The position numbers and the translations under genes are program-made. DNA of 64,000 nt from a virus. Location: the IMG/VR virus record IMGVR_UViG_3300020477_001008, positions 124,001 through 188,000 of that record; one strand, 5' to 3'. How positions within the stretch are numbered: the first letter of the stretch is position 1; each line of letters starts with the position of its first letter. Below the pieces are notes generated by a model that did not search any database, was not told where the DNA came from, and saw nothing but the letters and a program-made list of their open reading frames with translations. This document shows positions 17,846-62,280 of the stretch, in pieces.

Positions 17846-18121
17846 ATGAAATTATTAGCAACTATACTATTTTTATTCGCAACTGTGGCAGTAGTCACAG
17901 ACGTTAATGCTGGTCACAAAAGAGGCAATGGTACTTGTTTTGATGACTATACGCATTGGAAAAATATGATCAACAAAAGATCTGATGCACCACTTTGGCA
18001 ACAAAGTAAGGATATGAGAGATTTAGCAATATCTCAACGTGTCCAAGGTAATACTGAAAAGTGCGAAGAATTAATGGAAGAAGCTTTACGAATGATTCGT
18101 AAACCTTATCCAACTGAATAA
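17846..18121 (+). CDS. Small secreted protein
   Basis: A 91-residue protein with a clear signal peptide: K at position 2, hydrophobic core to about residue 20, and V-N-A|G as the likely cleavage site at 22/23. The mature domain has two cysteines (C-F-D-D-Y and E-K-C-E-E-L) and a helical charged C-terminus, so a periplasmic disulfide is possible. It ends three small genes of membrane or envelope character. Role unknown. Confidence 0.6.
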   Translation: MKLLATILFLFATVAVVTDVNAGHKRGNGTCFDDYTHWKNMINKRSDAPLWQQSKDMRDLAISQRVQGNTEKCEELMEEALRMIRKPYPTE

Positions 18122-18127
18122 ATCTGC

Positions 18128-18155
18128 TTGACATCGGAGCAAAATCAAGTATAAT
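18128..18155 (+). promoter_or_regulatory. Strong sigma70-like promoter of the cobalamin-riboswitch unit
   Basis: TTGACA (18128-18133) and TATAAT (18150-18155) are both perfect hexamers, 16 nt apart. This is the closest match to the bacterial consensus in the window. Transcription should begin near 18162, immediately before the riboswitch. Confidence 0.8.
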
Positions 18156-18164
18156 AAAAATTAA

Positions 18165-18331
18165 GTAGTGAATCGTGTTGGGGAATCAGTGTGAAATTCG
18201 CTGGCTCTACCAGGAACCGTAAAGTCGGAGTGCCAACCACTACAAGTCCGCTGTCGAATGAGGGCCTGGGAAAGTCTAGTTCTACAATGAAAAGTTAACA
18301 GTGGCGAGGCACGGCAACGTGTCATAAGGAA
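18165..18331 (+). promoter_or_regulatory. Cobalamin (B12) riboswitch with Shine-Dalgarno-masking hairpin
   Basis: The leader has G-rich GGGGAA, then GTGTGAAATTC, a GGCTCTACCAGGAAC segment and CCGTAAAG (18180-18224), matching the order of the conserved cobalamin aptamer core (GGGAA, GGTGNGAAA-like, GCTG, CCGC-AACTGTAA-like). Downstream, TTAACAGT (18295-18302) and ACTGTTAA (18332-18339) are exact inverted repeats. They enclose a GCAA-loop hairpin and the AAGGA Shine-Dalgarno (18326-18330), and the stem includes the A of the start codon. This fits a translation-controlling expression platform. The 3' B12-box half is poorly conserved, so it may be a marine AdoCbl-variant or class II type. Confidence 0.7.
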
Positions 18332-18338
18332 ACTGTTA

Positions 18339-18848
18339 ATGAATAAAACAACTGAAACGTTAGTATTATTTCTCTACTATATAGGTATTATAGCCTTGAG
18401 TAGAATAATACCACATCCACCAAACTTTACACCGGTTATTGCTATGGCAATTTTTATGCCATATATGACTCGCGATGTATATTTGGCTATGTTAGTTCCA
18501 ATTACGGCAATGTTTGTTTCAGATCTTTATTTGGGTTTGCACTCATTTATGATTTGGATTTATGGAACTATAATGTTATGTACACTTGTTAGTAGATATT
18601 TTAATTTAATAACAATGTCTATATTTGCACCAGTTATATTTTTTACAACAACTAATTTTGGTGTATGGTTAACAAGCACATTATATCCAAAAACACTAGA
18701 CGGTTTAATCTTATGTTACACGATGGCGATACCTTTTTTTAGAAACACATTATTGAGTACGATATTTTATATATTATTACTTGGAGCAATATATGAAATA
18801 GCAAAAAGGAGTTATACGTGGTTAAAAAAATATTACTATCTGCAATAA
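18339..18848 (+). CDS. DUF6580-like multi-pass membrane transporter, probable cobalamin uptake
   Basis: A 169-residue integral membrane protein with five or six hydrophobic segments. The first loop has S-R-I-I-P-H-P-P-N-F-T-P-V-I-A-M-A, the signature I associate with the DUF6580 family of putative transport proteins, which resemble ECF transporter S components. It is the first gene behind the cobalamin riboswitch, so cobalamin or a corrinoid precursor is the likely substrate (inference). It overlaps the TonB receptor gene by 31 nt. Confidence 0.72.
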   Translation: MNKTTETLVLFLYYIGIIALSRIIPHPPNFTPVIAMAIFMPYMTRDVYLAMLVPITAMFVSDLYLGLHSFMIWIYGTIMLCTLVSRYFNLITMSIFAPVIFFTTTNFGVWLTSTLYPKTLDGLILCYTMAIPFFRNTLLSTIFYILLLGAIYEIAKRSYTWLKKYYYLQ

Positions 18849-20686
18849 TACTATTATGTTGGTGGCTTGTTATGACAAAGGTACAAGCTAATGAAACAGA
18901 ACAATTTAAATCAGAATCTTTTTATGAAGAAGATGGTGCGTTAGTTGTTGATATAACAATTTATTTGATTAGAGATCCAAGCACACTTACAACAAAATCA
19001 ATGAGTGTTGATTATGTAGACAAATACACAATTGAAAATACAAATAGTGTTGATACAATACAAGCAATACAAAGAGTAACAGGTTTAACAATAGTACAAT
19101 CAGGTCCAACAGGACAACAAACATCAATCTTTATGAGAGGAACAAATTCTAATCATACAATGGTTGCTATAAATGGAATACCAATTAAAGATAATTCAAC
19201 AACAGGCGGACTACACGATTTAGGACAAGACTTTATTAAACATATTACTGGAATACAAGTAGTAAAAGGTTCACAAGGAACACTATTTGGTCCAAATGCA
19301 GTTGGTGGTGTAATTAATTTTATTACAACAGACAGTTATGAAAATTCAATATCAACAACAATAGGATCAAACAATACTAAAGGTGTAACAGTAAAAATAC
19401 ACGAAGATATTGATAATCACTCAATAAGTTTAATTTTAGATGGTACAAAATCAGATGGTATATCAGTATATCCAAATGGTGCTGAAAAAGATGGATATGA
19501 TACTAAAAATATTACAGTAAACACAAATAGTAAATTTGAAAACTTTGATATAGGAACTACTATTATTAAAAGAAATAATAATTCAGATTTAGATGCATCA
19601 GGTTCTGATGATACAGATTACACATCAAATAACAAAATGAGTGTATATCAAATTTATACAAAAATAAAAAATGCACTAGGATTTAGTAATTTTACTTTTT
19701 CTAGAAGTGAATATGATAGAGAATATGTAAATGGTACAGAAATTGATGAATATGATTCAAATACGAACACTTATCTTTTTACAAATACTTTTATGTTTAA
19801 TGATTTTGATATAACGCCTGGTATTGAGTATGAACAATATGATGGTACGTTTAACAATAGAGGTTCATATACATCATCAGTTGATAAAGAAGGAGATAAC
19901 ACAGGAACATTTATTAATGGAAATTATCTAGTAAATGATAAACTTCTTTTTTCAATAGGTTTAAGAAATGATAACTCTAGTATGTTTAACAACTATAACA
20001 CTTATAGACTAGGTACTACATATGAACTAACTGATGACTTAACATTAAAAAGCAATTATTCAACAGCAGTAAAAACACCTACACTATACGAACTATATGG
20101 TGCAGACAGTTATGGTTATAATGGTAATCCTGACTTACAACCAGAAGAAGCAGAAACAATAGATATAGGTTTTGAATATCAAATAAATGATAAAATGGAT
20201 ATGGACCTTGTTTACTTTACTACTGACTTAGATAATATGATCACGTATGGTAATAGTACATATTCAAATGCAACAGGTACATCTAACAGACACGGTGCTG
20301 AATTAAAAATGAATAGTGCTATAGATGAAAACTTTTATGTAAGGTCAGGTACAACGTTTACTATTGCACAAGACAGTGATGATAAACAAGTTACTAGAAG
20401 ACCAAAATGGAATTGGTTTACAGGTATTGATTACAAGAAAGACAAAGTTACAAACACACTTGAATGGATTTATACTGGAAAGCATTTAGACATAGATTCA
20501 CAAACTTATGCTACTATTGAAAAACCAGCAGTTGATATAATTAATTTTCATTCAAAGTATGAGCTTAATGAAAGTTCAGAATTAATACTTTCTGTAAACA
20601 ATCTTACAGATGTAGATTATGAAAGACCAGATGGCTATTCGCAAGATGGTAGAAACTTCTTACTAACATTTAAAATTAAATACTAA
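18818..20686 (+). CDS. TonB-dependent outer-membrane receptor, BtuB-like
   Basis: A 622-residue TonB-dependent receptor starting with GTG, preceded by AAAAGGAG. It has a signal peptide (cut after V-Q-A, about residue 24), a plug domain with F-M-R-G-T-N-S-N-H-T-M-V-A-I-N-G-I-P-I and G-P-N-A-V-G-G-V-I-N-F-I, and a beta-barrel with the conserved Y-E-L-Y-G and N-P-D-L-Q-P-E segments. It ends with an aromatic barrel terminus. The riboswitch upstream suggests corrinoid uptake, like BtuB. Encoding a nutrient receptor in a phage genome is unusual. Alternatives are siderophore uptake, or receptor replacement that affects superinfection. Confidence 0.88.
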   Translation: MVKKILLSAIILLCWWLVMTKVQANETEQFKSESFYEEDGALVVDITIYLIRDPSTLTTKSMSVDYVDKYTIENTNSVDTIQAIQRVTGLTIVQSGPTGQQTSIFMRGTNSNHTMVAINGIPIKDNSTTGGLHDLGQDFIKHITGIQVVKGSQGTLFGPNAVGGVINFITTDSYENSISTTIGSNNTKGVTVKIHEDIDNHSISLILDGTKSDGISVYPNGAEKDGYDTKNITVNTNSKFENFDIGTTIIKRNNNSDLDASGSDDTDYTSNNKMSVYQIYTKIKNALGFSNFTFSRSEYDREYVNGTEIDEYDSNTNTYLFTNTFMFNDFDITPGIEYEQYDGTFNNRGSYTSSVDKEGDNTGTFINGNYLVNDKLLFSIGLRNDNSSMFNNYNTYRLGTTYELTDDLTLKSNYSTAVKTPTLYELYGADSYGYNGNPDLQPEEAETIDIGFEYQINDKMDMDLVYFTTDLDNMITYGNSTYSNATGTSNRHGAELKMNSAIDENFYVRSGTTFTIAQDSDDKQVTRRPKWNWFTGIDYKKDKVTNTLEWIYTGKHLDIDSQTYATIEKPAVDIINFHSKYELNESSELILSVNNLTDVDYERPDGYSQDGRNFLLTFKIKY

Positions 20687-42006: not shown

Positions 42007-44334
42007 ATGAATAAAGAAGCAGACCTGTACATTGTTAAACGAGACGGAAGAAAAGAATTACTTGATATTAATAAAGTACACAAAATGACTGAAGCGGCTT
42101 GTGAAGGCTTAACTGGAGTTTCATCATCACAAGTAGAAATGAATTCAGGTTTACAATTTTCAGATGGAATGTCAACACAAGACATTCAAGAAGTATTAAT
42201 TAAATCAGCAAACGACTTAATTACATTAGAAGCACCTAACTATCAGTACGTTGCTTCAAGACTACTTCTTTTCTCACTTCAAAAACACGTATTTGGAAAA
42301 TGGTTGCCATCAGATAATCATATTCCATTAAGATATTTGGTATCAAGAAATATTGAACGTGGTGTATACGATAAAGCAATATTAGATCAATTTAGTGATG
42401 ATGAATGGAATAAGTTAAATGGGTATATGAAGCACGAAAGAGATTGGGATTTTACATACGCAGGTTTAAGACAAGTTGTAGACAAATATCTAGTACAAGA
42501 TAGAAGTACAGGTGCAGTATACGAAACACCACAATATATGTATATGATGATTGCGGCAACACTATTTGCAAATTATCCATTAGATACAAGAATGCAATAC
42601 ATCAAAAAATATTATAATGCTATTTCTACTTTTAAAATTAATATACCTACACCAGTAATGGCAGGAGTAAGAACACCAATGAAACAATTTGCAAGTTGCG
42701 TTCTTGTAGAAGTTGATGATACACTTCCTTCTATTTTTTCTAGCGATATGGCTATTGGAAGATATATTGCACAAAGAGCCGGCATAGGTATTAATGCAGG
42801 TCGTATTAGAGGTATTAATTCTAAAATTAGAGGTGGTGAAGTAGCACACACAGGCGTTGTTCCATTCCTTAAAAAGTTTGAAGCAACTGTAAGATGTTGT
42901 ACACAAAACGGAGTACGTGGTGGTAGTGCTACAGTTCATTTCCCTATATGGCACCAAGAGATTGAAGACATTTTAGTTTTAAAAAATAATAAAGGTACAG
43001 AAGATAATAGAGTACGTAAACTAGATTATTCAATACAAATTAGTAAATTATTTTATGAGAGGCTATTAGCTAATGCCGATATAAGTCTTTTCTCGCCTCA
43101 CGAGGTGCCGGGTTTGTATGATGCATTTGGCACAACAGAATTTGATGATTTATATATTAAGTATGAAAAAAATAAATCAATTAGACGTAAAAAAGTTTCT
43201 GCACAAGATTTGTTTAATAACTTATTAAAAGAAAGAGCTGAAACAGGTCGTATCTATATTATGAATATTGACCATTGCAATAGTCACTCATCATTTAAAG
43301 ATAAAGTTAATATGAGTAACTTATGCCAAGAGATAACACTACCAACAGTACCAATTAATCACATTGATGGAAATGGTGAAATTGCACTTTGTATTCTTTC
43401 TGCTATTAATGTTGGTCAGATTAAAGATTTAGATGAATTAGAAAACTTATGTGATTTATCAGTTAGAGCTTTAGATGAAATTATTGATTATCAAAAGTAT
43501 CCTGTAAAGGCGGCTGAAATATCAACTAAAGCTAGAAGAAGTTTAGGAGTAGGTTATATTGGACTTGCACACTATCTAGCTAAAAATTATGTTGGCTATG
43601 ATGATAAAAAAGCATTAAAGATTGTACACGAATTATCAGAAGCATTTCAATATTATCTAGTTCAAGCATCTATGAATCTTGCACAAGAAAAAGGTAAATG
43701 TGAATATTTTGAAAGAACAAAATATGCAGATGGTAAAATGCCAATTGATCATTACAAAGAAGATTTAGATGATATTTGTAATACAAGACTAAAATTAAAC
43801 TGGGAAAAATTAAGAAAACAAGTAAAACAATTTGGTATGAGAAATTCAACATTATCAGCCCAAATGCCAAGTGAAAGTTCTTCCGTAGTTAGTAATGCTA
43901 CTAATGGAATTGAGCCACCACGTGGTTTTTTATCAGTAAAAAAATCTAAAAAAGGCCCACTAAAACAAATTGTTCCACAATATAAAACACTAAAAGATTA
44001 TTATACTTTGTTATGGGATATGGAATCAAATGATGGTTATATTAATATTGTTTCAGTAATGCAAAAGTTCTTTGATCAAGCTATATCAGGTAATTGGAGT
44101 TACAATCCAACGCAATTCGAAAATAATGAAGTACCAATGAGTGTTATGTTTAAAGATTTATTAACAACATACAAATTAGGTTGGAAAACAAGTTATTATC
44201 AAAACACATATGATTTCAAAACTGATGCTTCAGTAGAAGTAGAAGTACAACCAATACAACAAGCGGCACAAGATTTTGCAAAAGCAAATTTAGAAGTCCA
44301 AGCAGGTGATGACTGCGATGCTTGTAATATATAG
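42007..44334 (+). CDS. nrdA: Ribonucleotide reductase class Ia, large subunit
   Basis: A 775-residue NrdA that reduces ribonucleoside diphosphates. It has an N-terminal ATP-cone-like region (I-V-K-R-D-G-R-K-E-L-L-D-I-N-K-V-H), N-G-V-R-G-G-S-A-T-V-H-F-P-I-W-H-Q-E, the N-L-C-Q-E-I active-site segment with the thiyl cysteine, and a C-terminal C-D-A-C redox pair. The enzyme is B12-independent, so the cobalamin-regulated genes upstream are not explained by it. The R2 gene follows 17 nt after the stop. Confidence 0.95.
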   Translation: MNKEADLYIVKRDGRKELLDINKVHKMTEAACEGLTGVSSSQVEMNSGLQFSDGMSTQDIQEVLIKSANDLITLEAPNYQYVASRLLLFSLQKHVFGKWLPSDNHIPLRYLVSRNIERGVYDKAILDQFSDDEWNKLNGYMKHERDWDFTYAGLRQVVDKYLVQDRSTGAVYETPQYMYMMIAATLFANYPLDTRMQYIKKYYNAISTFKINIPTPVMAGVRTPMKQFASCVLVEVDDTLPSIFSSDMAIGRYIAQRAGIGINAGRIRGINSKIRGGEVAHTGVVPFLKKFEATVRCCTQNGVRGGSATVHFPIWHQEIEDILVLKNNKGTEDNRVRKLDYSIQISKLFYERLLANADISLFSPHEVPGLYDAFGTTEFDDLYIKYEKNKSIRRKKVSAQDLFNNLLKERAETGRIYIMNIDHCNSHSSFKDKVNMSNLCQEITLPTVPINHIDGNGEIALCILSAINVGQIKDLDELENLCDLSVRALDEIIDYQKYPVKAAEISTKARRSLGVGYIGLAHYLAKNYVGYDDKKALKIVHELSEAFQYYLVQASMNLAQEKGKCEYFERTKYADGKMPIDHYKEDLDDICNTRLKLNWEKLRKQVKQFGMRNSTLSAQMPSESSSVVSNATNGIEPPRGFLSVKKSKKGPLKQIVPQYKTLKDYYTLLWDMESNDGYINIVSVMQKFFDQAISGNWSYNPTQFENNEVPMSVMFKDLLTTYKLGWKTSYYQNTYDFKTDASVEVEVQPIQQAAQDFAKANLEVQAGDDCDACNI

Positions 44335-44351: not shown

Positions 44352-45452
44352 ATGGCTAAGACAATTTTTAACAGAAACGAGATCGACTTCACTAAAGAGC
44401 CAATGTTCTTTGGTGCGGATCAGAACGTGCAAAGATATGATGTATTCAAGTATCCACAGTTTGATAAACTTAACCAAACAATGTTAGGATACTTTTGGAG
44501 ACCTGAAGAAGTAAGTTTACAAAAAGATAGAGCTGATTTTTCTACATTCAGACCAGAACAAAAACATATATTCACATCTAATTTAAAATATCAAACACTA
44601 TTAGATAGTGTACAAGGTAGAGGACCATCATTGGCATTTTTACCTTATGTTTCTAATCCAGAATTGGAAGGTTGTATTGTTACTTGGGATTTCTTTGAAA
44701 CGATACACTCAAGATCATATACACACATCATTAAAAATGTTTATCCAGATCCGTCAGAAGTATTTGATACTATATTAAATGACAAAGAGATTTTAAAAAG
44801 AGCTGTAAGTGTTACAAAAAATTATGATTCATTTAGCGAAGCGGCAGAGAACTATTTTGTAAAAGGCAAAGGTGATTTATATGATGTTAAGAAAAAATTA
44901 TATCTTGCTATGCACAATGTAAACTTATTAGAAGGCTTAAGATTTTATGTATCATTTGCTTGTACCTTTGCATTTGGTGAACTTAAACTTATGGAAGGTT
45001 CAGCAAAAATTATTAGTTTAATTGCTAGAGATGAAGCAACACACTTAAACTTGTCAACACACGTAATTAAAAATTGGCAACAAGGTGATGATAAAGATTT
45101 TACAAAGATTATCAAAGAATGTGATAGTCAAGTATACGAAATGTATAAAACCTGCGTAGAAGAAGAAAAGGCGTGGGCAAAACACTTGTTCAAAGATGGA
45201 AGTATTATTGGATTAAACGATAGACTATTATTTAAATATGTTGAGTTTATTGCTAATAAAAGATTAAAAGCACTAGGTATGGAGCCAATCTTTGAACAAC
45301 CAGTAACACAAAATCCATTACCTTGGACACAGCACTGGTTATCGTCTGCCGGTCTGCAAGTTGCACCACAAGAAACTGAAGTTGAAAGTTATATTATTGG
45401 TGGTGTTAAACAAGACGTAAACAAAGATACATTTAAAGGATTTAAATTATAA
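44352..45452 (+). CDS. nrdB: Ribonucleotide reductase class Ia, small subunit
   Basis: A 366-residue R2 protein that carries the diiron-tyrosyl radical. W-D-F-F-E-T-I-H-S-R-S-Y-T-H and I-A-R-D-E-A-T-H-L-N supply the conserved Glu/His ligands. The C-terminal tail (about 30 residues, rich in acidic and hydrophobic residues) is the NrdA-binding type. It follows nrdA and overlaps the next start by one base. Confidence 0.94.
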   Translation: MAKTIFNRNEIDFTKEPMFFGADQNVQRYDVFKYPQFDKLNQTMLGYFWRPEEVSLQKDRADFSTFRPEQKHIFTSNLKYQTLLDSVQGRGPSLAFLPYVSNPELEGCIVTWDFFETIHSRSYTHIIKNVYPDPSEVFDTILNDKEILKRAVSVTKNYDSFSEAAENYFVKGKGDLYDVKKKLYLAMHNVNLLEGLRFYVSFACTFAFGELKLMEGSAKIISLIARDEATHLNLSTHVIKNWQQGDDKDFTKIIKECDSQVYEMYKTCVEEEKAWAKHLFKDGSIIGLNDRLLFKYVEFIANKRLKALGMEPIFEQPVTQNPLPWTQHWLSSAGLQVAPQETEVESYIIGGVKQDVNKDTFKGFKL

Positions 45453-47293: not shown

Positions 47294-48229
47294 ATGTCAA
47301 CAAGAAATATATGGGGTATAGGACAAGATACATTAAACTTTCCATCTGATACTATTCCAGTATCAAGTATGATGAGTGATACACAAAAGAATTTAATTAA
47401 TAGTGGATTACTTGATCAAGTTGATTTTACGGATCCTTGGGGAAGAAAATCTAAAGCATATCCTGGTTTTCAAAATCCGCATAATGATACTTTAACACAA
47501 ATTGCTAATGGCTGGAATTCAAGATTATCAGTTATGCCAGATGGTTGGAATGATAGCAACTATGCCAATAGAGCAGTTGTTGATGGAAATGCATTAGGTA
47601 ATGGTTTCAGTGCTAGAAAGTTAACTGATACAGAAATTAAAGATATTGGTTTTGTTGAAGGTATATTAAAAGACTTTACATTTTTAACTAATAGACAATC
47701 TGGTATGGACATTATGGAATATGCAAATCCTAATAGTATGTGGTCAGCATTAGGAAATACAGGTACCTATGGTGCTATGGTTGGTTTACCTACCACAGCA
47801 AGTTTTCCAACTGGTATTGTAGTTCCAGGTGTAACAAATTATCTTGGTGTTGCTAGAACTATAAATGAAATTGGACAAATTTTAAATAATGTACCAACAG
47901 GTTATACTTCTGGTCCTTGTAAATGGATAGAAGATATAATGAAAGCTGTAATGAAAGGTGGTTCAATATTAGCAGATATATTGAATAAAGTACTTGACGT
48001 ATTAGGCATCATTGGATTAGTAAACTCAATACTTGGTATGATTAAAATGTTAATGGATATGATACTTGAAGATCTAAGAACATTAGGATCAGCTATTGAA
48101 AGAATGAAGCAGGCGGCTTTATCTGGATTGTTAGAAGCATTAATGAAAGACCCTTGTATGAGATACTTAATTACGGCAGGGTTGGCAGTAGCTGGTACAG
48201 TAGCAATATTAAAAACAACCTCTCTATAA
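47294..48229 (+). CDS. Putative baseplate- or spike-associated virion protein
   Basis: A 311-residue protein directly after the PAAR gene. The N-terminal 180 residues are soluble and Asn/Gly-rich. The C-terminal 110 are hydrophobic and helical (L-D-V-L-G-I-I-G-L-V-N-S-I-L-G-M-I-K-M-L-M-D-M-I-type and a final I-T-A-G-L-A-V-A-G-T-V). It may insert in membrane at injection, or act with the spike. No enzymatic motif. Confidence 0.62.
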   Translation: MSTRNIWGIGQDTLNFPSDTIPVSSMMSDTQKNLINSGLLDQVDFTDPWGRKSKAYPGFQNPHNDTLTQIANGWNSRLSVMPDGWNDSNYANRAVVDGNALGNGFSARKLTDTEIKDIGFVEGILKDFTFLTNRQSGMDIMEYANPNSMWSALGNTGTYGAMVGLPTTASFPTGIVVPGVTNYLGVARTINEIGQILNNVPTGYTSGPCKWIEDIMKAVMKGGSILADILNKVLDVLGIIGLVNSILGMIKMLMDMILEDLRTLGSAIERMKQAALSGLLEALMKDPCMRYLITAGLAVAGTVAILKTTSL

Positions 48230-48236
48230 TTTTTTC

Positions 48237-48264
48237 TTGTTTTTTCTAAAAATTCGTGTATAAT
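48237..48264 (+). promoter_or_regulatory. Sigma70-like promoter of tmRNA
   Basis: TTGTTT (48237-48242) and TATAAT (48259-48264), 16 nt apart, with a start near 48271. Confidence 0.6.
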
Positions 48265-48270
48265 TAACAG

Positions 48271-48520
48271 ACAACGTTGAAGTTATCGTAATAGATTATA
48301 TGGACGTGGGGGCAGTACCCACCACCTCCACCATTAAGTTAAAAAGTTTTATGGGGGTGAACTAGGATCGACAGTAATTCAAAGGGTAATGGAGTTGTCC
48401 GGATGGAAGCTCGGTTAACGCGACAAACTTATAAATGCAGATGAAAATCTAGCACTTGCGGCCTAATTCGTTAGGCTAACGGGGTCCGGGGCACCTGGCA
48501 ACAGAACGCCCCACTTGTAT
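48271..48520 (+). ncRNA. ssrA: Circularly permuted (two-piece) alphaproteobacterial-type tmRNA
   Basis: The two tmRNA halves are in permuted order. The acceptor half comes first, with the T-arm-like GTGGG-GGCAGTA-CCCAC and ends CCTCCACCA at 48333. A short spacer follows, then the 5' half opens GGGGGTGA at 48353 with GGATCGACAG. The tag frame at 48437-48463 (GCA GAT GAA AAT CTA GCA CTT GCG GCC, then TAA) encodes A-D-E-N-L-A-L-A-A. Its stop lies in a GCCTAA-TTCG-TTAGGC hairpin. A GGGGC/GCCCC stem closes the end. tmRNA rescues stalled ribosomes and tags products; the LAA end is a ClpXP degron. The permuted form points to an alphaproteobacterial host. Confidence 0.88.
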
Positions 48521-48521
48521 T

Positions 48522-48800
48522 ATGATAAAAAAAATTAAAGAATTTTGGGTAACAAGTTATAAATCAGATCCGTTTGCATTTATTAATGAAATGGCTTCAA
48601 CTATTCTAATAGTTATAGGATCAGCTATTTTAACGTGGACAGTATTAGATCCAAAGCCAGAAATTTTTATTCCTTTTTATTGGGCTGGTAGTATTGCTGG
48701 ATTTATAGGAGCATATCGTAGAACTCTGCCTTGGGTAATGGTATTGACATTTTGGTTTATAATGTTAAATAGTATTGCACTTTGGAGGTTGTTTTTATAA
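48522..48800 (+). CDS. Small three-helix membrane protein
   Basis: A 92-residue protein with hydrophobic segments at about residues 27-43, 50-65 and 69-91. A P-W-V-M-V motif and two Trp near the last helix are visible. It starts just after the tmRNA and overlaps SpeD by one base. Role unknown; holin or transporter-accessory functions are possible by size only. Confidence 0.6.
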   Translation: MIKKIKEFWVTSYKSDPFAFINEMASTILIVIGSAILTWTVLDPKPEIFIPFYWAGSIAGFIGAYRRTLPWVMVLTFWFIMLNSIALWRLFL

Positions 48801-60385: not shown

Positions 60386-60856
60386 ATGTCAGAAGATGAA
60401 GTAAAAAAAGCTGAAGAAACAAAGGCAGAAGAAAAGCCAGTAGAACCAAAAGCTGAAGAAACATCTAAAACTATTACAAGAAATTTAGATGCTATTGTTG
60501 AAGAACTTGGACAATTAACAGTTATGGAAGCGGCCGATCTTGCTAAAAAATTAGCTAAAGCTTGGGATATTGATTTAGATAATATGGCGGCCGGTGTTGC
60601 ACCAGCAGGTGGTGGCGCCGCGGGAGCTCCAGCAGACGCAGATGCTCCTGTAACAGTTATATTAAAAGATTTTAAAGAAGGTACTAAAATTAATGTCTTA
60701 AAAGCAATTAAGGCAATTAAAGGTTTAGGACTAATGGAATCTAAACAATTTGTAGAAGCATTACCTAAAGAAGTTGATTCAGAAATACCAAGAGATAAAG
60801 CAGAAGAAATTAAAAAACAATTGGAAGAAGTTGGCGGTAACGTTGAAATAAAATAA
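60386..60856 (+). CDS. rplL: Ribosomal protein bL12 (L7/L12) with N-terminal extension
   Basis: A 156-residue bL12. Beyond an acidic 30-residue N-terminal extension, [19 protein letters not shown] forms the dimerisation domain. A Gly/Ala/Pro hinge follows, then the factor-binding C-domain with V-T-V-I-L, I-K-A-I-K[11 protein letters not shown] and a final V-E-I-K. bL12 recruits translational GTPases at the stalk. It starts an operon with sufB and the ALDH. Confidence 0.93.
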
Positions 60857-62280
60857 TGTTAGATGAGCATAAGGTAGGAAAAGATTATAAAGAAGGCTTT
60901 ACTACGGACATTGAAGCCTATACACTACCCCCTGGTCTAAATGAAGACGTTATTAAAAAGATATCAAGTTTTAAAAAAGAACCACAATGGCTTTTAGACT
61001 GGAGACTAAAAGCTTATAAGGTTTGGCTGAATATGAAACAGCCTGAGTGGGCAAAGTTAGATATTAAGCCAATTGACTATCAAGCAATATCATATTATTC
61101 AACACCTAATCCTAAATTAAAATCTTTAGATGAATTAGATCCTAAAATTTTAGAAACATATAATAAGTTAGGTATTCCATTACACGAACAAAAAGCATTA
61201 GCAGGTGTGGCCGTTGATGCAGTATTTGATTCTGTATCTGTAGCTACAACGTACAAAGCAGATTTAGAAAAACAAGGTATACTTTTTTGTAGCTTTAGTG
61301 AAGCAGTAGAAAAATATCCAGAAATAGTTAAAAAATATTTAGGTAGTGTAGTACCACAAGGTGATAATTTTTTTGCTTGTTTAAATTCAGCTGTATTTAC
61401 AGATGGTTCATTTGCTTATATTCCTAAAGGAGTTAGATGTCCTATGGAACTATCAACTTATTTTAGAATAAATGCGGCCAACACAGGACAATTTGAAAGA
61501 ACATTAATTATATGTGAAGATGATGCATACGTATCTTATCTAGAAGGATGTACAGCACCAATGCGTGATGAAAATCAATTACACGCCGCGGTAGTTGAAT
61601 TAGTAGCAAAAGAAAATGCAGAGATAAAATATTCAACAATACAAAATTGGTATCCAGGAGATGAAGATGGAAAAGGTGGTGTATATAATTTTGTAACTAA
61701 ACGTGGTAAATGTCAAGGACGTAAAAGTAAAATATCTTGGACACAATTAGAAACAGGTTCAGCATTAACTTGGAAGTATCCTTCTTGTGTATTAATGGGA
61801 GATTATTCAGTAGGAGAGTTTTATTCAGTAGCAGTATCAACAGGTAAACAACAAGCTGATACAGGAACTAAAATGATACATTTAGGAAAACATACAAAAT
61901 CAACAGTTATATCAAAAGGTATTTCAGCAAAACAAGGAAAGCAAACTTATAGAGGATTAGTATCAATGGGTGGTAATGCTAAAAAATCACAAAACTATAC
62001 TCAATGTGATTCGTTGCTTCTTGGAGATAAGTGTTCAGCACTTACTATACCTTATATTAAAAGTAAAACAAAATCTTCTAAATGCGAACACGAAGCGTCA
62101 ACATCAAAAGTATCTGATGAACAATTATTTTATTTAAGACAACGTGGACTTAAAGAAGAAGATGCTGTGAACTTAATTGTAAATGGTTTTGTAAAAGAAG
62201 TAACTAAACAGTTACCAATGGAGTTTGCAGTTGAGGCCAATAAACTTTTATCAGTAACATTAGAAGGATCAGTAGGATAA
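60856..62280 (+). CDS. sufB: Iron-sulfur scaffold SufB
   Basis: A complete 474-residue SufB. Key segments are present: [20 protein letters not shown] (with the conserved persulfide-accepting Cys), and C-E-H-E-A-S-T-S-K near the end with the His/Glu used in assembly. SufB usually works with SufC and SufD, which are not in this window and may come from the host. It overlaps bL12 by one base. Confidence 0.94.

Follow-up and report, generated by a model that had tools for sequence, protein, structure and literature searches.

The genome of a large marine phage carries, amid phage genes, a compact unit that consists of a promoter, a class II cobalamin (AdoCbl-II) riboswitch and two overlapping genes, for a DUF6580 protein and a BtuB-like TonB-dependent receptor, and it is quite probable that this unit mediates regulated corrinoid uptake (Table 1). 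The window analyzed here is a stretch of 64,000 bases, positions 124001-188000 of a 242,646-base virus record (G000; IMG/VR IMGVR_UViG_3300020477_001008). The unit is flanked by genes for a T4-type terminase, a virion structural protein, a single-strand-binding protein (SSB) and a UvsX-like recombinase. A preliminary description of the window had postulated that the phage genome contains a single, self-contained unit; the promoter, the riboswitch, the overlapping gene pair and the phage flanks bear this out, and the positions given there were correct. The full explanation that we favor, an operon for corrinoid uptake that is carried by the phage and regulated by cobalamin through feedback, is likely as a whole.

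Table 1 Features of the uptake unit and of related loci
Feature	Position	Strand	Remarks
Sigma-70 promoter, TTGACA-N16-TATAAT	18128-18155	+	12/12 consensus bases, 16-base spacer
AdoCbl-II (class II cobalamin) riboswitch aptamer, P3-P6	18165-18243	+	RF01689, model 1-81 of 81
L5 loop ACCA	18209-18212	+	kissing-loop partner of L13; both partners exchanged (A-U to U-A) in L020 and the SAR11 leaders
Possible anti-sequestor, 5' strand CCGCTGT	18248-18254	+	putative; partner 18298-18304
P13 stem (18263-18265/18274-18276) with L13 TGGG (18267-18270)	18263-18276	+	all cells paired
Start-codon/SD hairpin (sequestor), arms 18294-18302/18332-18340	18294-18340	+	encloses SD AAGGA 18326-18330
DUF6580 protein, 169 aa	18339-18848	+	PF20221; predicted inner-membrane corrinoid transporter
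TonB-dependent receptor, BtuB-like, 622 aa	18818-20686	+	GTG start; overlaps DUF6580 by 31 bases
KedN5-like radical SAM protein, 598 aa	G000 90887-92683		outside the window; NF033712 E 5e-45
TTACCGTATTNAACAATNNRGGTTGGGGTRAT leader	L014:2554-2585, L020:1736-1767, L021-L023 and L039:5972-6003, L024:1434-1465		
Small lipoprotein gene	L014:3121-3306, L020:2303-2497, L015:6482-6664, L018:1134-1316, L029:6467-6652		

Promoter and leader RNA

The promoter, previously described as near-consensus, proved to match the consensus at every base. It is the only match with zero or one mismatch in the window, matches with one mismatch being expected by chance, and a comparable TTGACA/TATAAT-like pair is present in each of the related phage leaders. 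Among the Rfam covariance models, RF01689 alone matched the region 18120-18360, even at E<=1; the match (85.1 bits, E 5e-20, against a gathering cut-off of 36.5 bits) confirms the earlier suggestion of a cobalamin aptamer-like leader and is the only one to this family in the entire virus record. Cobalamin binding and control of expression by the leader are predicted from its sequence.

To assess the conservation of the leader structure up to the start codon, we aligned nine phage leaders of the window type, the L020 leader and three leaders from Pelagibacteraceae (n=13). In this alignment, 95.4% of the 454 cells pair, and 12 of the 35 pairs are changed on both sides, compared to 7.1 in shuffled alignments and 0-3 in slid controls; the counts of two-sided changes are inflated by the kinship of the sequences, a relatedness that the slid controls retain. 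Covarying pairs are found in P3, P4, P5 and P6 of the aptamer. Three of the four pairs of the L5-L13 kissing loop are kept in all 13 sequences, one of them with a two-sided change (pair 53-122, A-U in nine sequences and U-A in four), whereas the outer pair mostly fails. An alternative pairing of L5, as CCAGG/CCTGG, overlaps P5 and was discarded, so that the loop bases alone were counted.

The start-codon hairpin folds with -18.1 kcal/mol, against a mean of -7.8 for shuffled sequences (z -5.3), and its inner six pairs are 96% paired over the 13 sequences, with one pair changed on both sides (157-187, U-A in nine sequences, C-G in two). A stem masking the Shine-Dalgarno (SD) sequence had been proposed for the window, and there the hairpin indeed encloses the SD; as a conserved feature, however, SD masking had to be replaced by a start-codon hairpin, because a clear SD is limited to the window and its closest relatives (L004, L005 and L079). 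What is kept across the phages is an AACAGT/ACTGTT hairpin whose end coincides with the start codon. The aptamer, the kissing loop between L5 and L13 and the start-codon hairpin are all backed by covariation. The possible anti-sequestor (18248-18254/18298-18304) has the strand 18298-18302 in common with the sequestor; because this pairing is conserved (95.6% of cells paired) but shows no covariation beyond chance over the 13 sequences, the ON structure is given here as putative.

The receptor and the DUF6580 protein

The second gene encodes a TonB-dependent receptor, as originally described, with both the plug (PF07715, 62.9 bits) and the barrel (PF00593, 127.1 bits), which is of the 22-strand type, scoring above the respective cut-offs. 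In a profile comparison with the PDB, the best match is BtuB (212 bits; 122 bits for the next kind of protein), and BtuB is also the best match of the predicted fold (TM 0.82), so that by sequence profile and modeled structure the receptor is nearest to BtuB; the identity to Escherichia coli BtuB is 25% over 604 columns. We call the protein BtuB-like only, because it scores 227.6 bits with the BtuB equivalog model TIGR01779, below the cut-off of 599.7. Near the N-terminus, where a TonB box would be expected, ALVVDITI at about residues 41-48 resembles the BtuB motif DTLVVTA without matching it exactly.

The first gene had been described as DUF6580-like, and its product matches PF20221 with 138.4 bits (E 3.4e-40; gathering cut-off 27); we found no papers on DUF6580 in the open-licence literature. 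In bacteria, DUF6580 genes adjoin receptor genes in SAR11, SAR116 and other groups, and a cobalamin riboswitch of class I or II was detected in 18 of the 19 bacterial DUF6580 neighborhoods scanned, which were chosen mostly for the presence of a receptor. The predicted model (pLDDT 86) has as its nearest folds the ECF S-components PanT, ThiT and FolT, at TM 0.51-0.57 and non-significant E values of 0.7-3, and the sole sequence match in the PDB (6fnp_A, E 0.15) comes from the B12 transporter ECF-CbrT. Like the S-components BtuM and CbrT, DUF6580 is a small membrane protein of the six-helix class, although it shows no significant similarity to either. Furthermore, C126 is invariant in the phage DUF6580 set and present in 22 of the 25 bacterial sequences compared, and BtuM, which shows that B12 uptake by a Gram-negative bacterium can rely on a lone S-component, has an essential cysteine. 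We consider it reasonably likely that DUF6580 is a solitary, S-component-like inner-membrane transporter of corrinoids.

In the operon model that we favor, host RNA polymerase would start at the consensus promoter and make the unit readable early and apart from its neighbors. At low cobalamin levels, the DUF6580 start codon would be accessible, perhaps with the help of the anti-sequestor, and both overlapping genes would be translated; the BtuB-like receptor, driven by host TonB, would move corrinoid through the outer membrane, and its passage through the inner membrane would be the task of DUF6580. Upon cobalamin binding, L5 would dock on L13, P13 would be held, the strand 18298-18304 would be freed into the start-codon hairpin, and translation would stop. 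The cofactor would probably feed B12-dependent enzymes of the radical SAM methyltransferase type encoded by the phage and, possibly, host enzymes too. The succession of kissing loop, P13 and RBS hairpin, with translation turned off, is the published mode of the btuB and env8 riboswitches (PMC10653944; PMC10907184).

Spread of the unit among phages

Other phages have such a unit as well. Relatives of DUF6580 are encoded by 36 viral contigs, of which 12 contain RF01689 and 17 contain a receptor gene; these and the other viral relatives are all metagenomic and mostly fragments. In seven of the 12 contigs with the aptamer (G001-G007), the unit occupies the same site as in the window, preceded by homologs of the terminase and the 14933-16966 gene and followed by the SSB and UvsX genes, and in three loci (L011-L013) it lies elsewhere in a related phage, 3' of a DnaB-like helicase gene. 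A DNA pattern derived from the aptamer core identified 47 stretches and added 36 records, all but one of which (35) passed the RF01689 cut-off, bringing the total for the AdoCbl-II riboswitch to 48 viral records (the window, the 12 DUF6580 contigs and the 35 reached by the pattern). A receptor gene follows the aptamer, directly or after DUF6580, in all 40 stretches that are long enough, out of 46 true ones. Five relatives (G018-G021 and G036) have the DUF6580 and receptor genes and no riboswitch. Among the isolated phages of INPHARED, DUF6580 has no match and the receptor has only distant enterobacterial matches of the BtuB type.

In seven phage contigs, mostly without the riboswitch, a different conserved leader, TTACCGTATTNAACAATNNRGGTTGGGGTRAT, is located just 5' of the DUF6580 start codon; in L020, this leader and the riboswitch occur in tandem. 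It has no Rfam match, folds weakly, is absent elsewhere in the viral contigs and perhaps represents another regulatory RNA. In L014, L015, L018, L020 and L029, the place of the receptor after DUF6580 is taken by a gene for a small lipoprotein (60-64 aa, ..TTLKYGNTDQDGDSVNGSYGSENFTITQTFTW).

The phage leaders fall into two types, that of the window and an env8 type, which directly precedes the receptor and has its SD in the P13 loop (GAGCAAGGAGACTC) and kissing loops of the form CUUG/CAAG. The contigs with env8-type leaders belong to phages as well, given the terminase on G041 and G067 and the tail-fiber-assembly protein on L072. Two of these leaders (L059 and L082) contain an aptamer that appears to be identical to the env8 hydroxocobalamin riboswitch (PDB 4FRG/4FRN); if it is, the crystallized env8 would be a phage riboswitch. 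Numbered from GGCC, the aptamer has G19, A20 and A68, as does env8 (PMC11838749), and the two are of the same class, with the RBS in the P13 loop in both (PMC10907184). Compared to env8, the leader in the window is longer and has a separate start-codon hairpin, and its aptamer has G at the positions of A20 and A68 in the alignment, so it is not assigned to the env8-like (MeCbl/hydroxocobalamin-selective) subclass.

The AdoCbl-II class was first described from marine sequence only. We found no account of phage-borne cobalamin riboswitches over nutrient uptake in the open-licence literature. The glutamine riboswitches of marine phages (Melnitz, Mosig) are phage-borne too but belong to another ligand class and accompany a tmRNA gene rather than an uptake operon (PMC9004378).

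Possible uses of the imported corrinoid

The ribonucleotide reductase (RNR) of the phage belongs, as previously noted, to class I (NrdA 42007-44334, NrdB 44352-45452), which excludes a B12-dependent phage RNR as the consumer; QueG was likewise considered and is absent in 20 records. The preliminary description had concluded that the purpose of the unit was unclear, which now seems too pessimistic, since the phage encodes a KedN5-like, B12-type radical SAM protein and the corrinoid taken up may be used by an enzyme of the phage and not by host enzymes alone. This protein (G000 90887-92683) contains a radical SAM domain, and its match to NF033712, the KedN5 family of methylcobalamin-dependent radical SAM C-methyltransferases, spans both the B12-side and the radical SAM regions, at a score (154 bits) far under the cut-off of 700. 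The N-terminal part also matches other B12-type radical SAM families, and, although PF02310 was not detected on this or any other G000 protein, the sequence aligns through the PF02310-positive domain of a G026 protein (E 4e-35). By homology, the protein is predicted to depend on B12.

Similar genes recur beside the unit in other phages. In the five related phages G018-G021 and G036, a relative of the KedN5-like protein is encoded near the DUF6580-receptor pair (within about 2 kb; 4 kb on in G018), which at the loci L022, L023, L024 and L039 places it one to two genes 3' of the pair, with about 83% identity where compared. In the riboswitch phages G033, G045, G048 and G066, no more than about 3 kb separates the receptor from a gene for a B12-binding radical SAM protein. 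Judging from genome neighborhood, the radical SAM genes appear to be the best clue to the purpose of uptake. G000 has 23 radical SAM matches (at 198-219 kb, 135-136 kb, 170 kb and elsewhere) and the 328-kb G018 has 22, unusual counts for a phage, with several "twitch domain" proteins (NF033640) in a row at L048:1336-15619. A SufB/SufD-type iron-sulfur assembly protein (60856-62280 +, PF01458 E 1e-80) is in keeping with the large number of radical SAM enzymes in the phage. A fatty acid desaturase-like gene (L044:17006-17770) and a 2OG-Fe(II) oxygenase gene (L044:8161-8865), at about 88-98 kb of G000, are located near the KedN5-like gene, and a relative of the desaturase-like gene is directly 3' of the receptor in L021-L024.

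Use of the imported corrinoid by a phage radical SAM enzyme is, in our estimate, a serious possibility that falls just short of an even chance. Import could instead benefit enzymes of the host, such as methionine synthase or queuosine reductase, and keep the infected cell productive, the phage radical SAM genes being unrelated to it. We regard this as possible, if rather doubtful: the phage RNR is of class I, the closest bacterial counterparts are uptake operons of SAR11 whose leaders are homologous, and the close relatives G001, G003 and G005 have the unit and no B12-type radical SAM gene, but these three are fragments, whereas long records commonly have such genes, often adjacent to the unit.

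The ligand might also differ from cobalamin, with the unit importing another corrinoid or cobalt compound (cobinamide or other cobamides) and the switch tuned to it. Several corrinoids trigger cobalamin riboswitches (PMC9600662), and the aptamer in the window has G for both A20 and A68 of env8; yet nothing in the sequence indicates a particular non-cobalamin corrinoid, and we consider this variant unlikely.

BtuB is a classical receptor of phages and colicins, and the preliminary description had raised the idea that the phage receptor replaces or blocks one used by rivals. A defensive role on the cell surface, in which the phage protein replaces, dilutes or masks a host receptor for other phages or for colicin-like agents, could accommodate the small lipoprotein genes found in the place of the receptor (L014, L015, L018, L020 and L029). 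It appears quite improbable, because there is no obvious need there for a switch repressed by cobalamin or for a partner in the inner membrane, and at least four captures of DUF6580 by phages would be left unexplained.

Origin and evolution of the unit

The leader in the window is homologous to leaders upstream of a receptor-DUF6580 pair in Pelagibacteraceae (SAR11), and RF01689 scores above the cut-off in 28 of 297 Pelagibacterales genomes. The SAR11 operons (L158, L166 and L171) share with the phage unit the aptamer class, the extended leader with P13 and the start-codon hairpin, both genes and the receptor clade; they differ in that the receptor comes first (AdoCbl-II riboswitch, TonB receptor, DUF6580), reversing the phage order, and in the kissing-loop pair, which is U-A in SAR11 and A-U in most phages. 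The receptor, for which the preliminary description had pointed to SAR11 as a comparison, falls into one clade with its SAR11 counterparts at an identity of about 30%: the 17 phage sequences and three Pelagibacteraceae sequences with class II leaders group together (100/99), and the window receptor groups with those of L005, L006, L009, L011 and L013 (100/100). In the DUF6580 tree, the phage sequences are scattered among different bacterial neighbors, and well-supported branches force at least four changes, suggesting that phages acquired DUF6580 repeatedly.

The window contains a permuted tmRNA gene of the alphaproteobacterial type (48221-48557 +, tag ADENLALAA); marine phage tmRNAs are already known (PMC9004378). 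This tmRNA and the SAR11 relatives of the unit suggest SAR11 or a neighboring group as the host.

Both genes evolve under purifying selection, with dN/dS between the window and L005 of 0.087 for the receptor and 0.124 for DUF6580 and an overall range of 0.07-0.24. An artifactual join of host DNA to a phage contig, which had been raised as a caveat, or a decaying passenger can practically be dismissed in spite of the bacterial relatives of the leader and the genes, given that the unit recurs next to the terminase in seven other viral contigs, where it is placed as in the window, and that many independent contigs have phage flanks, that the nearest bacterial receptor is about 32% identical compared to 65-89% for phage relatives, that the G+C content of the unit (0.30) is like that of the phage, and that purifying selection acts on both genes.

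Implications

Vitamin B12 limits growth in the sea, and the presence of the riboswitch in dozens of marine phage fragments suggests, together with the import genes of this phage, that some viruses actively manage how their host cells are supplied with B12. A broader proposition, which we put forward tentatively, is that marine jumbo and T4-like phages run a cobalamin economy of their own, with import through a phage receptor and a phage DUF6580 transporter, sensing by phage riboswitches and spending by phage methylcobalamin-dependent radical SAM enzymes, and that env8 is a phage RNA. If this is true, B12 would come under viral control during infection, DUF6580 would gain a testable function, env8, a widely studied structural model RNA, would gain a biological owner, and phages would count among the organisms that have their own B12-dependent chemistry.
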